From an uncultured Ectothiorhodospiraceae bacterium (GTDB taxonomy: Bacteria > Pseudomonadota > Gammaproteobacteria > Nitrococcales > Nitrococcaceae), in contig CAJXND010000021.1 of NCBI GenBank assembly GCA_913056385.1, forward strand, positions 1 through 32,417: 32,417 nt of DNA, given 5' to 3'. Of this stretch, positions 1,827 through 31,684 are shown piece after piece; positions within the stretch are counted from its first letter, which is position 1, and the number at the start of each line of letters is the position of its first letter. The position numbers were made by a program, and so were the translations under genes. Below the pieces are notes generated by a model, which ran no database searches, had not been told where the DNA came from, and saw only the letters and a program-made list of their open reading frames with translations.

Positions 1827-3134
1827 ATGTTGGATGGATCCCGCAATGTCTTCATCTATGGGCTTGATGACTTCCACCGGGAACAGCTCGCCACCATCCA
1901 GGACGCCGGTGGGCTGAGCTTTCACCAGCTCCTCGAGCATGACGAGGCGATCCACCCGGAAACCTTCCCGGTGGATCGCATGCTCGAGAAGAGCGAGCGC
2001 ATCCTCGATGACTTCTCGGGCACCGTCGATGCGGTCTGCACCTACTGGGACTTCCCCACCAGCACGATGGTGCCGATCCTGCGCGAGCGCCGGGCACTCC
2101 CCGGCGCGGGGCTCGTGCCGGTCCTCAAGCTCGAGCACAAGTACTGGGCCAGGCTGGAGCAGCAGGCGGCGGTGCCGGCGCTCACACCGCCGTTCGACTG
2201 GGTGGATCCGTTTGCCGACGATCCCGCCGAGGACCTGGGCATTGATTTCCCTTTCTGGCTGAAGCCGATCAAGGCGCATTCCTCCTATCTGGGTTTCCGC
2301 ATCCATAATCACAGAGAGTTCCGGGATGCGATCCGGCAGATCCGCGAGGGGATCCACCAGTTCGGCGACCCCTTCAACGCCATCCTCGAGAAGGCCGACC
2401 TCCCGGACGAGGTGGCCCCGATCGGCGGCTACCACTGCATCGCGGAGGGCATCATCAGCGCCGGGCAGCAGTGCACGCTCGAGGGCTATGTCCGCGGTGG
2501 CGAAGTCACCGTCTACGGGGTGGTGGACTCCATTCGCGAGGGCCGGCATCGCTCCAGCTTCAACCGCTACCAGTATCCATCGCGACTGCCGCGTCGCGTG
2601 CAACGGCGCATGATCGATGCCGCGACCCGGGTCATGACCCGAACCGGCTACGACGATGCCCCGTTCAACATGGAGTTCTTCTGGAATCGGAGCGCCGATC
2701 GGCTGGCGTTACTGGAGGTGAATGCGCGCTGCTCCAAGTCGCACTCGCCGATCTTCCACATGGTGGATGGGGCCTCCCACTTCCAGGTGATGGTCAACCT
2801 GGGGCTGGGGCGGGCGCCGGCGTTCCCGCATCGCCAGGGCGATTATCGAATGGCGGCGAAGTTCATGCTCCGGGTGTTTCAGCCCGGTCGGATCACCCGT
2901 ATCCCTTCACAAGCGGATCTCGAGCGTTTGCAGACCCGCTTCCCCGAGTCCTGTGTCCGGGTGCTGGTCGAGGCCGGCCAGAATCTCTCCACGCTGCGCT
3001 TCCAGGACAGCTACAGCTACGAACTCGCCGAGGTTTTCCTGGGCGGACATGACCAGGCGGATCTGCTGGCCCGCTCCCGTGAGGCCCAGGAGATCCTGGG
3101 GTTCGAGGTCGATCATGCGGAGCGCGCGGCCTGA
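1827..3134 (+). CDS. ATP-grasp domain protein of unknown substrate
   Basis: A 435-residue protein with features of the ATP-grasp fold, whose members use ATP to activate a carboxylate and join it to an amine, thiol or hydroxyl. An N-terminal pre-ATP-grasp-like region (about 5-110) is followed by an ATP-binding lysine segment FWLKPIKAHSSYLGF (about 143-157), a second-lobe strand TLEGYVRGGEVTVYG (about 217-231), and the Mg-binding end FNMEFFW...LLEVNAR (about 280-301), where Glu and Asn are the expected metal ligands. A further 130 residues follow. I do not recognise the family below fold level. The GGGGAGG ribosome binding site is unusually close to the ATG (2 nt). The 3' end overlaps the convergent photolyase-like gene by 22 bp. 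Its position after ppk2 suggests use of nucleotide made from polyphosphate, but that is inference. Confidence 0.8.
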   Translation: MLDGSRNVFIYGLDDFHREQLATIQDAGGLSFHQLLEHDEAIHPETFPVDRMLEKSERILDDFSGTVDAVCTYWDFPTSTMVPILRERRALPGAGLVPVLKLEHKYWARLEQQAAVPALTPPFDWVDPFADDPAEDLGIDFPFWLKPIKAHSSYLGFRIHNHREFRDAIRQIREGIHQFGDPFNAILEKADLPDEVAPIGGYHCIAEGIISAGQQCTLEGYVRGGEVTVYGVVDSIREGRHRSSFNRYQYPSRLPRRVQRRMIDAATRVMTRTGYDDAPFNMEFFWNRSADRLALLEVNARCSKSHSPIFHMVDGASHFQVMVNLGLGRAPAFPHRQGDYRMAAKFMLRVFQPGRITRIPSQADLERLQTRFPESCVRVLVEAGQNLSTLRFQDSYSYELAEVFLGGHDQADLLARSREAQEILGFEVDHAERAA

Positions 3135-4345
3135 CGCTCGACGATCAGCGGCCGAGCCGCCTTCCAGAAGCGGAAAAACCCGTGGGTGGCCGCCGGCCAG
3201 TGCAGTGAATCCCATTCCCGAAGCACAGGCTGACGGCGGATACCGGCAGCCTCGAGCACCTGATCGAGCATCGCCATGGCATCCGCCGTGGGCCCGGTGG
3301 GGACCCAGGGCGTGACCAGATGATCGACGCCAGCGGCCAGCGCCGCGTCACGAATCGTCTCGGCATCGGCAGGGCGGGTCAGCTCGAGGGGGCCGGCCTG
3401 TCGGGCGCCGGGATTGCGGGCGAGGGCGTCATCGAGACCGGCCCGGGCAAAGGCCCGGACCCGGTCAGGGACAGGCTCGATGCTTCGCCATCCGGTGGTC
3501 TGCACGGCCATGACCAGCGGCCAGTCGTGACGGCCCAGCAGGGTCTCCGGCAACTGGTCCTCCTCGGTGATCAGCAGGCCGGTGGTCGGCGTCAGCCGCC
3601 AGTCCACCGGCATCGGCGACGGCTCCACCGGCGGGCGTTCCACCCCCTCCGGTGGCGAGACCTGGGTATTGAGCTGATCGCCCGGGTTGAAGCGGCCGTT
3701 GGTGTACTTGTTGATGTTCGATGACCGGGCGATATAGGCCTTGCCCGGCGTGTGCAGCCCGGCCACCCAGCGCCACGAGAGCGTGTTGGAGGCGGGGTCG
3801 CCGTCGAGGAGATGGCGCAGGAAAAAATCCGCGCCCAGCGCCCAGGGCAGCTCGAGGGTAAAGACCCAGATACTGGCGAACCACATGCGGGCATGGTTGT
3901 GCAGATACCCGGTCTCGCGGAGTTCGTGCACCCAGGCGTCGAACGCCTCGATGCCCGTCCCGCCGTCGAGTGCCCGATCGATATCCGCGGCCAGTCGGCG
4001 GTCCCTGGACTGCTGCGTCCGGGCCTCTTCGCAGGCGGCATGGTAGTCGTGCCAGTGGATCGGACGACGTTCGAGGAAGCCCTTCCAGTAGGTCCGCCAA
4101 CAGACTTCCTGGATGAATTTCTCCGCCCCATCCAGTCCGTGACGGTCGATGGCCGCCTCGACCACCGTTTCCTCGAGCAACAGTCGCTGGCGCAGCCAGG
4201 GCGAGAGCCCCGAGACGCGGTTGCCACCCGCGGGCCCGAAGTCGTGATTGCGCCAGCGGGCATAGTCCCCGCCGGCATGGGGAAGGAATGCGGTGAGCCG
4301 GTCCAGGCCGGCCGCATGGGTTGCCTCGGGCTGCGCTAGAAACAT
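3113..4345 (-). CDS. Photolyase/cryptochrome-family flavoprotein with apparently permuted domain order
   Basis: Photolyases are flavoproteins that repair UV pyrimidine dimers using light. In this 410-residue product the FAD-binding helical domain comes first (about 12-228): RVSGLSPWLRQR (43-54), FIQEVCWRTYWKGF (77-90), TGYLHNHARMWFAS (145-158), DPASN (183-187, the usual flavin-contacting Asn), WRWVAG (191-196) and YIARSSNINKY. The alpha/beta antenna-type domain, normally N-terminal, appears at the C-terminus (about 252-400). It contains DHLVTPWVPTGPTADAM and ends in REWDSLHWPAATHGFFRFWKAARPL, which resembles the end of a normal antenna domain. The start ATG overlaps the stop of the upstream methyltransferase gene by 10 nt, giving a two-gene DNA-repair operon. 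Whether it repairs DNA or acts as a light sensor cannot be told. Confidence 0.85.
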   Translation of the reverse strand: MFLAQPEATHAAGLDRLTAFLPHAGGDYARWRNHDFGPAGGNRVSGLSPWLRQRLLLEETVVEAAIDRHGLDGAEKFIQEVCWRTYWKGFLERRPIHWHDYHAACEEARTQQSRDRRLAADIDRALDGGTGIEAFDAWVHELRETGYLHNHARMWFASIWVFTLELPWALGADFFLRHLLDGDPASNTLSWRWVAGLHTPGKAYIARSSNINKYTNGRFNPGDQLNTQVSPPEGVERPPVEPSPMPVDWRLTPTTGLLITEEDQLPETLLGRHDWPLVMAVQTTGWRSIEPVPDRVRAFARAGLDDALARNPGARQAGPLELTRPADAETIRDAALAAGVDHLVTPWVPTGPTADAMAMLDQVLEAAGIRRQPVLREWDSLHWPAATHGFFRFWKAARPLIVERQAARSA

Positions 4346-4899
4346 ATCGGGTGGCTCCCGTGGTCGCTTTCCCAGTGAATGAGACGACGTTTGCGCAACG
4401 CCCCGCCGATGTAGTTGCCCTGGCGGCCGTCGCGTCGGATGACCCGGTGACAGGGCAGCAGAACCGGCAGCGGGTTGGCCGCCACGGCACTGGCGACCGC
4501 CCGCACGGCCCGGGGGCGGCCGACCACCGCGGCGAGGTCACTGTAACTGACGCACTCGCCGGGGGCGATGCGCGCCAGGGATCGCCAGACGGCGAGCTGG
4601 AATTCAGTGCCGACGAGCGCGAGCCGCGGGGTGGAATGGAGGCCCCAGGGGGCGGGCAGCCCATCCGGGGACGCCGCCGGCTCGTCCGCCGGACAGGGCC
4701 CCTGAAAACGCGCCATGACGAGCATGTCGGCGTTCCCGACCAGCAGCAGCGTGCCCCAGGGCCCGTGCCACAGGGCGCGATTCGGTACCGCCGGACGGGC
4801 CGTGGTGGCGACAATCTGCAGGGCTTGATGGATGACGGGCTGCTCCCGGTGACGGCTCCACGTTATCCTATCGGCTGATCGACCTGCGTTAAACGACAA
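4336..4899 (-). CDS. ogt: Methylated-DNA--protein-cysteine methyltransferase (Ogt/MGMT family)
   Basis: Removes alkyl groups from O6-alkylguanine by suicidal transfer to an active-site cysteine. The C-terminal domain is clear: FQLAVWRSLARIAPGE, then SYSDLAAVVGRPRAVRAVA (the helix-turn-helix and Arg-finger region), then the active site PCHRVIRRDG, and NYIGGALRKRRLIHWE. The start is uncertain. The frame stays open to 5037, but that would run deep into the divergent M42 gene. In the plausible zone there is no ATG or GTG: options are TTG at 4899 (used here, 187 residues), a CTG at 4821 that would fit the family length better, or a late ATG at 4689 or thereabouts that would cut into the N-terminal domain. 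The stop overlaps the photolyase start by 10 nt, so both repair genes are likely translated together. Confidence 0.85.
   Translation of the reverse strand: MSFNAGRSADRITWSRHREQPVIHQALQIVATTARPAVPNRALWHGPWGTLLLVGNADMLVMARFQGPCPADEPAASPDGLPAPWGLHSTPRLALVGTEFQLAVWRSLARIAPGECVSYSDLAAVVGRPRAVRAVASAVAANPLPVLLPCHRVIRRDGRQGNYIGGALRKRRLIHWESDHGSHPICF
4864..4870. promoter_or_regulatory. Candidate two-way -10 element between ogt and the M42 gene
   Basis: TATCCTA reads as a -10-like hexamer on both strands (TATCCT on plus, TAGGAT on minus). It lies 43 nt before the M42 ATG on the plus strand, which has its own GGGAG ribosome binding site, and faces ogt on the minus strand. No good -35 is visible on either side. 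Confidence 0.35.
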
Positions 4900-29863: not shown

Positions 29864-31684
29864 ATGACACAAAGCCGTCGTTTCGATCCGGATCCGGTGC
29901 TCAAGAGCCTGCCGACAGGACCGGGTGTCTATCGCATGTTCGATGATACCGGCACGGTCATCTATGTCGGCAAGGCGCGCAACCTCAAGCGCCGGGTGAG
30001 CAGCTATTTCCGCAGGGGCGCCCACAATGCCAAGACCCAGGCGCTGGTGAGCCAGGTCGCGGACCTGCAGGTGACGGTCACGCACACCGAGGCCGAGGCG
30101 CTGATTCTCGAGAACAACCTCATCAAGGAGCACCGGCCGAGATACAACGTCCTGCTCCGCGACGACAAGAGCTACCCGTATATCCATCTCTCGACGCAGC
30201 AGGATTTCCCGCGGCTGTCATTCCATCGCGGTCAGCGCCGGGGGGAGGGGCGCTATTTCGGTCCGTTCCCGTCATCCGGCGCGGTACGCGAGACGCTCAA
30301 TCACCTGCAGAAGGTATTCCCCGTGCGCCAGTGCCGGGACAGCTTCTACCGGCATCGCTCGCGGCCCTGCCTGCAGTACCAGATCGGTCGCTGCACGGCG
30401 CCCTGTGTGGGTTATATCAGCGAGGCGGATTACGCGAAGGATGTCCGCCATGTCGAGATGTTTCTCTCCGGGCAGAGCAACGAGGTGGTCGATGAGCTGG
30501 TGGGCCGCATGGAGGCGGCCGCCGAGGCGCTCGACTTCGAGCAGGCGGCCCGGCTCCGGGACCGCATCACCAGCCTGCGCCGAATCCAGGAGCGTCAGTA
30601 CGTCTCCGGTGCCCGCGGGGATGTGGATGTCATTGCCTGCCGGCTGCGGGAGAACCTGGCCTGTGTCCAGGTGTTCGTGATCCGTGACGGCCAGAACCTG
30701 GGCAATCAGACCTATTTCCCGCGCACACCCCCGGAGACCACGCCGGAAGAAATCCTCTACGCCTTCATCGCCCGCCACTATCTCGGCGAGACGCCGCCGG
30801 GGGAATTGCTGGTCAGCCATGAACTGGCCGACGGGGAGCTCCTGGAGGAGGCGCTTGGGCATGATGCGGGCCACCGGGTGCGGATCGCCTCGCGTCTGCG
30901 GGGCGATCGACGCCGCTGGATGGAGATGGCCGAGCGCAACGCCGAGCATGCCCTCAGTGCGCGGATGGACAGCGAGGCCATCATGGAGCGGCGCTTCGAG
31001 GATCTGCAGGGGGCGCTCGCGCTGGACGAAATCCCGGAACGCATCGAGTGCTTTGACATCAGCCATACCCGGGGCGAGGCCACGGTGGCGTCCTGTGTGG
31101 TGTTCGGGCGGGAAGGGGCCATCAAGGACGACTACCGCCGGTTCAACATCGAGGGCATTACCGGGGGAGACGACTACGCGGCCATGCACCAGGCCCTGGA
31201 ACGGCGCTTCCGGCGTCTCCGGGAGGAGGAGGGGACAGCGCCGGATCTTCTGCTCATCGACGGTGGCGAGGGCCAGCTTCGTCAGGCCGAGGGCGTGCTG
31301 GATGATCTGCAGATCGAGGGTGTTATCCCGTTGGGCATTGCCAAGGGCCCCAGGCGTCGCCCGGGGGAGGAGGTGCTGTTGATGGCCGGTCGTCCGGACA
31401 GCATCCGCCTGGCCCCGGCGTCACCGGCACTGCATCTGCTGCAGCAGGTGCGCGATGAGGCGCATCGTTTTGCCATCACGGGGCATCGCAGCCGGCGCGG
31501 CAAGTCCCGCAACCAGTCCAGCCTGGAGGAAATCGCGGGGCTGGGTCCGAAACGCAGGCAGGCGCTGATGAAACAGTTCGGCGGCCTCAAGGGCATCAAA
31601 CGGGCCGGCGTCGAGGATCTGTCACGGGTTCCCGGCATCAGCGCGGCACTCGCCGAGCGCATTCACGGGCATCTCAACGGTTGA
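29864..31684 (+). CDS. uvrC: UvrABC excinuclease subunit C
   Basis: Makes both incisions around a DNA lesion in nucleotide excision repair with UvrA and UvrB. The 606-residue product has the GIY-YIG nuclease (about 16-95: GPGVYRMFDDTGTVIYVGKA, NLKRRVSSYF), the Cys-rich segment RPCLQYQIGRCTAPCVGYIS, the UvrB-binding UVR motif (about 203-238: EALDFEQAARLRDRI), the RNase H-like second nuclease (ECFDISHTRGEATVASCVVF; DLLLIDGGEGQL) and the C-terminal helix-hairpin-helix pair (about 550-605). Length and order are those of a full UvrC. pgsA follows after 25 nt and a tRNA-Gly after that, as in E. coli. Confidence 0.97.
   Translation: MTQSRRFDPDPVLKSLPTGPGVYRMFDDTGTVIYVGKARNLKRRVSSYFRRGAHNAKTQALVSQVADLQVTVTHTEAEALILENNLIKEHRPRYNVLLRDDKSYPYIHLSTQQDFPRLSFHRGQRRGEGRYFGPFPSSGAVRETLNHLQKVFPVRQCRDSFYRHRSRPCLQYQIGRCTAPCVGYISEADYAKDVRHVEMFLSGQSNEVVDELVGRMEAAAEALDFEQAARLRDRITSLRRIQERQYVSGARGDVDVIACRLRENLACVQVFVIRDGQNLGNQTYFPRTPPETTPEEILYAFIARHYLGETPPGELLVSHELADGELLEEALGHDAGHRVRIASRLRGDRRRWMEMAERNAEHALSARMDSEAIMERRFEDLQGALALDEIPERIECFDISHTRGEATVASCVVFGREGAIKDDYRRFNIEGITGGDDYAAMHQALERRFRRLREEEGTAPDLLLIDGGEGQLRQAEGVLDDLQIEGVIPLGIAKGPRRRPGEEVLLMAGRPDSIRLAPASPALHLLQQVRDEAHRFAITGHRSRRGKSRNQSSLEEIAGLGPKRRQALMKQFGGLKGIKRAGVEDLSRVPGISAALAERIHGHLNG

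Follow-up and report, generated by a model that had tools for sequence, protein, structure and literature searches.

The photolyases of the NewPHL class, first described in 2020, repair cyclobutane pyrimidine dimers (CPDs) in single-stranded DNA (ssDNA) and have an inverted domain topology, and A8LJA9 of Dinoroseobacter shibae is among the members named (excerpts of PMC13274461). The D. shibae NewPHL contains a Trp dyad (excerpts of PMC8948257). Phr7 of Prochlorococcus is described, with Emmerich 2020 cited, as having an N-terminal flavin adenine dinucleotide (FAD) domain and a C-terminal Z-domain, and Phr6 as having the FAD domain first and the photolyase domain last (excerpts of PMC9426592). 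Here, we analyzed a 410-amino-acid (aa) protein encoded on the minus strand of a 32,417-nucleotide stretch of DNA from an uncultured Ectothiorhodospiraceae bacterium (contig CAJXND010000021.1 of assembly GCA_913056385.1; the whole stretch is referred to below as the window). This protein is very probably a photolyase of the NewPHL class, i.e., an FAD enzyme whose domains stand in inverted order and which would split CPDs in ssDNA by blue/UV-A light. As the class is presented in those excerpts, the reversed-domain architecture is already known, and the caveat in the initial annotation of the window that the subfamily might be a described one was correct. The analysis adds a genus whose NewPHL copy pairs with ogt, an O6-methylguanine-DNA methyltransferase gene.

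The open reading frame (ORF) starts with an ATG at 4345-4343, ends with a TGA at 3115-3113 and contains no internal stop. PF03441 matched residues 77-208 with 81.8 bits (cut-off 27), and the match covered profile positions 1-129 of 203, while positions 130-203 were unmatched. By phmmer, residues 10-196 aligned with residues 210-395 of the class I photolyase 1owl of Anacystis (E 1.4e-14). Given that the PF03441 match lies early in the protein and that the end of the profile is unmatched, the catalytic domain is N-terminal and shortened at its end, without the usual last part; the remainder of the protein carries no family name. The FAD-domain landmarks listed in the initial annotation (LSPWLRQR, WRTYWKGF, LHNHARM, DPASN, and WRWVAG) lie at the positions given there, and the N-terminal match to PF03441 that it anticipated was obtained. 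The AlphaFold model, built with a 90-row family alignment, had a mean pLDDT of 96.5 and a pTM of 0.94, and residues 2-236 of the model superposed on photolyase FAD domains with Z-scores of up to 17.6 (1iqr; root-mean-square deviation [rmsd] 2.9, 218 residues aligned). This alignment consisted of 90 of the 95 extracted rows (L083, L001, L086, L040, and L030 were left out by hand), with the row L081 replaced by the window protein and the contig-end pieces L093 and L102 not taken.

Residues S45, L47, S48, E80, W83, R84, H149, N150, R153, M154, W168, D181, D183, A185, N187, W191, and W193 were invariant in all 90 rows. According to the alignments, all of them except W168 correspond to the FAD- or CPD-contacting positions whose roles are known in class I enzymes. 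In the electron-transfer triad of class I, the counterparts of W191 and W168 are the proximal and the middle tryptophan, respectively. At the place of the distal third tryptophan, the window protein has D115 by the 1owl alignment and Trp is not among the six commonest residues of the family, the alignment of this loop being uncertain. N187 aligns with N386 of 1owl, a position that we take to be equal to that of N395 of CraCRY. This latter Asn, which faces the FAD, is conserved in NewPHL (excerpts of PMC12083526).

In an FAD-domain tree of 42 hand-chosen rows, all 13 NewPHL rows, including the window protein and the D. shibae homologue, formed one clade with support of 100/99. The latter homologue (L200) is the only full-length one in genome G195 (48% identity, residues 9-406), and the two further partial matches in this genome belong to standard-order proteins with PF00875 first. 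G195 was taken as D. shibae DFL12 from a pDSHI01 piece that it contains at identical coordinates with 100% identity (394 genomes searched); the same piece was also found at 100% in G521 and G318, among others, at other coordinates. The window protein contained no PF00875 match at E<=10, PF00875 followed by PF03441 being the class I order, and its FAD domain starts from residue 2; no match to PF04244, the family of the FeS-BCP (prokaryotic 6-4 photolyase), was found; and the DASH cryptochrome model TIGR02765 gave 65.6 bits, over the FAD part only, against a cut-off of 317. The window protein resembles the NewPHLs in its N-terminal FAD domain, C-terminal Z-domain, Trp dyad, absence of an Fe-S cysteine set, and position in the D. 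shibae clade. It differs from them as a gammaproteobacterial (Spiribacter-like) protein that is 48% identical to the D. shibae homologue and whose gene overlaps ogt.

Because of its kinship with the D. shibae homologue, the window protein may be expected, by analogy, to bind FAD, to be photoreduced through W168/W191, to repair CPDs, and to prefer ssDNA. The light-dependent activity, FAD content, and ssDNA preference of the window protein itself are putative, and L200 is presumed to be the characterized A8LJA9. By extension from the class I enzymes and the NewPHL class, on which the electron-transfer mechanism proposed here is modelled, FAD would be reduced beforehand via W168/W191, light would excite FADH-, and an electron would be donated to a CPD flipped into a pocket formed by E80, W83, N150, M154, and W193; the CPD would then split and the electron would go back to the flavin. 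The preference for ssDNA would be carried over from the NewPHL class. The main role of the C-terminal domain is probably to close off the FAD pocket, which would otherwise be left open by the shortened catalytic domain, and it may carry no antenna chromophore despite its apparent descent from an antenna domain. In Emmerich et al. 2020 (NAR 48:12845), the FAD site is reportedly described as sealed by this domain.

We consider it very unlikely that repair has been lost and that the window protein is a cryptochrome-like blue-light receptor. The genome contains other photolyase-family genes (on contigs C5, C32, and C38, and the FeS-BCP-like gene on C1), as would be compatible with such a change of function. 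Against it, the class I CPD- and FAD-contact positions are identical in 90/90 rows, the NewPHL class repairs CPDs (excerpts of PMC13274461), and the gene is paired within the genus with ogt, a direct-reversal repair gene. Even less probable, to the point of being nearly negligible, is that the window protein belongs with the Fe-S short photolyase-like proteins (Phr4/Phr6 kind) instead of the NewPHLs. The FAD domains are related, and the order of FAD domain first and antenna domain second is found in Phr6 and Phr4+Phr5 (excerpts of PMC9426592), in the Deinococcus proteins L203, L204, L207, and L208, and in the window protein. However, all Phr4 and Phr6 carry Fe-S-type cysteines (excerpts of PMC9426592), and so do the Deinococcus proteins, which have a four-Cys set (four Fe-S-type cysteines each in L203 and L204) and form a separate branch in the tree. 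The window protein has no such set. C82 and C105 are its sole cysteines, with Cys in 19/90 and 7/90 rows, respectively; one alignment column has Cys in 58/90 rows and Ala in the window protein; and no four-Cys Fe-S set was found in the window protein or in the 90-row alignment.

The C-terminal domain of this NewPHL-type protein (about residues 254-410) appears from profile comparisons and the predicted structure to be homologous to the photolyase antenna domain despite strong divergence, and the evidence for this relationship is remote but consistent. By hhalign, the alignment of 90 C-terminal domains matched that of 24 class I antenna domains with a probability of 48.9 and an E-value of 1.8e-4. 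The match was colinear, with domain columns 47-158 on antenna columns 43-159, so that the closing helix lay inside and the first strand outside of it, and the stretch from TPWVPTGPTADAM to FFRFWKAARPL was in register with the end of the antenna domain. The initial annotation had noted an antenna-like look of this region and a likeness of FFRFWKAARPL to the end of normal antenna domains; the former is borne out, if remotely, by this score and by the structural match to 1iqr given below, and the latter by the register of the profile alignment. In an all-against-all run, the class I and FeS-BCP antenna domains matched each other with E 1.1e-4, and the C-terminal profile matched five decoy families, of which four were neighbor genes and one was the class I FAD domain, with E 0.08-0.56. 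The class I antenna set came from 24 of 55 loci, as a frame and motif filter removed the others, including all 26 same-genus loci, and the FeS-BCP antenna set from 11 of 17 loci. In addition, PF00875 weakly matched 8/90 family members (best E 0.0039). A four-row alignment of the reversed-order Deinococcus proteins matched the class I antenna domain with E 2.5e-9, and its match to the C-terminal domain of the window's family had an E-value of 9.3e-5. The profile scores, the Deinococcus intermediates, and the weak PF00875 matches together support homology with the antenna domain.

When modelled alone, residues 245-410 had a pLDDT of 96.1 and alternating strands and helices. VIA-align 2 placed 1iqr first (Z 8.4, rmsd 4.0, 142 of 166 residues aligned) and Cam1 second (Z 8.1, 121 aligned). 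Photolyases or cryptochromes made up 30 of the 50 matches listed, and among these listed matches 142-156 residues were aligned in 28/30 photolyases/cryptochromes vs. 104-130 in 18/20 others. Seven of the 30 ended with the antenna domain (e.g., residues 8-161 on 5-169 of 1np7 and 6-162 on 38-206 of 2ijg), and two stopped short. By Foldseek, the photolyases 1owm, 1qnf, and 1owl ranked second to fourth (probability 0.99-1.00). As a Z-score near 8 is modest by VIA-align 2's own note, the case was not rested on the structure match alone.

Several results weigh against homology with the antenna domain. By single-sequence Pfam search the window protein had no PF00875 match even at E<=10, and its C-terminal profile showed no signal against the FeS-BCP antenna domain (E 0.066). 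In the Foldseek search, no PDB entry matched the C-terminal domain at E<=0.001, and an Argonaute ranked first (probability 0.93). When the PDB sequences were searched with a profile of this domain, the best E-value was 0.007 (BdcA-type proteins), with photolyases in 0/18 rows. In 21 of the 30 photolyase/cryptochrome matches listed by VIA-align 2, the alignment extended beyond the target's antenna domain, and the last helix was thereby placed elsewhere. Furthermore, a 40-residue match to PF04273 (BLH_phosphatase) at residues 329-368 (window 3242-3361, minus strand) is unexplained; its score was 21.6 bits for the full protein (cut-off 26.1) and rose to 24.1 bits when only the domain was searched, and 15/90 members had this match at E<=1, the best of them with E 1.6e-5. 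PF04273 was rejected as the family of the window protein because the score was under the threshold and only one short stretch was covered. The initial annotation would have given up the antenna domain if there had been no significant match or no superposition; at the levels of profile and structure this was not the case, while the single-sequence PF00875 search that it proposed found nothing.

The C-terminal domain might also be an unrelated Rossmann-like domain, e.g., of the universal-stress-protein kind, that was fused to a bare FAD domain and looks like an antenna domain without any swap. The Z-scores of Cam1 and of universal stress proteins (7.5 at most for the latter) were near those of the photolyases, the PF00875, Foldseek, and FeS-BCP searches were negative as stated, and the decoys were neighbor genes and an FAD domain, not other Rossmann-like families. 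We nevertheless regard this explanation as unlikely. The photolyases and cryptochromes among the structural matches listed were aligned over more residues than most others, and seven of them covered only the antenna domain, to its last helix; the profile score was about equal to that obtained for two antenna families whose relatedness is presumed, and the decoys scored far worse; and the Fe-S-type relatives have a clear C-terminal antenna domain that also matches the window's family. It was observed separately that a protein of a Trypanosoma mitoribosome assembly intermediate (PDB 7pub/7pua chain Ff) matched the FAD-domain part with Z 15.5 and the C-terminal domain model with Z 6.8, and thus looks like a photolyase-fold protein.

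With homology to the antenna domain as the preferred reading, the window protein and the class I CPD photolyases (1owl, 1iqr, and 1dnp), which carry an antenna chromophore, have in common the FAD pocket, the CPD-contacting positions, two of the three electron-transfer tryptophans, and both domains. They differ in the opposite domain order and in the full-length FAD domain and third tryptophan of the class I enzymes. Short photolyase-like proteins (SPLs) were reportedly introduced by Xu et al. 2021. Unlike the SPLs as presented in excerpts of PMC9649867 and PMC9178010, the window protein has the equivalent domain, at the other end. The antenna domain is much better preserved in the Fe-S reversed-order proteins, those of Deinococcus included, than in the window protein, and L203 and phr4/phr5 each consist of two ORFs, whereas the window protein is encoded by one.

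The circular permutation proposed in the initial annotation is supported as far as the reversed order is concerned, while permutation and separate fusion are left undecided by the tree: in the FAD-domain tree, a single clade of all 19 reversed-order rows was neither shown nor rejected (approximately unbiased [AU] test, p 0.44). No description of this architecture as a circular permutation turned up in the literature searched, as judged from listings. We tentatively propose, with somewhat less than an even chance of being right, that the Z-domain is a true antenna descendant and that the NewPHLs, the Fe-S reversed proteins, and the Bacteroidota form come from one ancient order-reversing event, possibly via a split two-gene stage such as phr4/phr5 or L203. 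If so, the reversed-order enzymes did not arise before the two-domain plan, and one would have to revise the view that short photolyases, for lack of the alpha/beta domain, are ancestral. The link between Z-domain and antenna domain through the Fe-S-type reversed relatives bears on which came first, one- or two-domain photolyases, and in our judgment matters more than the new member itself. A permuted photolyase architecture that occurs in many proteobacteria has also been confirmed here from sequence alone. In L203 (Deinococcus sp. QL22 plasmid NZ_CP097153.1, 2384-3675), the reversed-order photolyase occurs as two overlapping ORFs for an Fe-S-type FAD domain and then a 173-aa antenna-like "hypothetical protein," which parallels Synechococcus phr4/phr5. 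L206 and L209, unannotated proteins from Persicobacter plasmids (Bacteroidota), have the FAD domain first and a C-terminal extension ending in FFA(Y/F)WKK, and form a long branch of their own in the FAD-domain tree. When the Deinococcus protein was searched against 395 relatives of G125, 186 genomes matched; the listed matches lay within its first 273 residues, and no further reversed-order protein was found among them.

The window protein is not a one-genome artefact. At least 576 relatives were found among GTDB genomes, and all of the best 80, a selection that favors full-length matches, matched from residue 1-20 to 392-410. By record titles, these 80 are mostly from Alphaproteobacteria, with some Gammaproteobacteria, one Frigoribacterium, and one Eremiobacterota. 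Within the window's own family, 21/23 genomes matched: the homologue is full-length, or split over contig ends (G017), in 14/14 genomes of the genus, the window's own included; two further genera (G002 and G008) contain full-length homologues; and the other five matching genomes have partial matches inside the FAD domain only. Eight plasmid records had >=80% query coverage, of which six are named FAD-binding domain-containing protein and two are without annotation.

The features of the locus are listed in Table 1. Given the overlap of the ogt stop with the photolyase ATG, the two genes are likely one transcription and translation unit. ogt was found beside the photolyase gene in 15/110 loci, which cover 14/14 genomes of the genus. 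It was found neither at L092 and L096, from two other genera of the family, nor at the 79 loci L002-L080, for which up to 4 kb of flanking sequence per side was covered. The pairing with an alkylguanine methyltransferase gene, cited in the initial annotation in favor of a repair role, is therefore real but was found in this genus only. When the neighbor genes of the 79 loci were clustered, the widest clusters were the photolyase and frames overlapping it, followed by a ClpP-like gene (28/79 loci) and a ClpX-like gene (27/79), names that we assigned by eye from the residues and thus presume; we read these neighbors as chromosomal synteny.

Table 1. Features of the photolyase locus (window positions)
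Feature	Positions	Strand	Basis
NewPHL-type photolyase gene (very probable assignment), 410 aa, FAD domain then antenna-homologous domain	3113..4345	-	ORF; family; AlphaFold model
N-terminal photolyase FAD/catalytic domain, residues 2-236	3638..4342	-	PF03441 match and structural match
Stretch from W168 to W191, two electron-transfer tryptophans (Trp dyad)	3773..3844	-	Alignments; both in 90/90 rows
Linker, residues 237-253, from FAD domain end to antenna-like domain start	3587..3637	-	Model without helix or strand there
C-terminal alpha/beta domain (Z-domain of NewPHLs), residues 254-410	3116..3586	-	hhalign, VIA-align 2, model
10-bp overlap of ogt stop with photolyase ATG	4336..4345	-	ORF coordinates
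Upstream gene (stop at 4336, start codon unsettled): DNA-binding domain of O6-methylguanine-DNA methyltransferase	4366..4605	-	PF01035 94.5 bits, TIGR00589 96.1 bits

Elsewhere in the same genome, PF03441 was found in one further gene on each of contigs C5, C32, and C38, always preceded by PF00875, and one PF04244 gene, which is FeS-BCP-like, on C1; the DASH cut-off was reached by none of the four PF03441 genes of the genome. The genes at G000:C32:17705-19111 and G000:C38:15435-16841 are two similar, non-identical 583-codon frames for a standard-order photolyase-family protein; their presence in one small genome may reflect paralogues or a trace of contamination. On the opposite strand, the end of an ATP-grasp protein gene (window 1827-3134, plus strand) overlaps the 3' end of the photolyase gene, and its homologue was found in 8/110 loci, every one from the window's genus. 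The nucleotide excision repair gene uvrC is located at window 29864-31684 (plus strand), about 25 kb from the photolyase gene.

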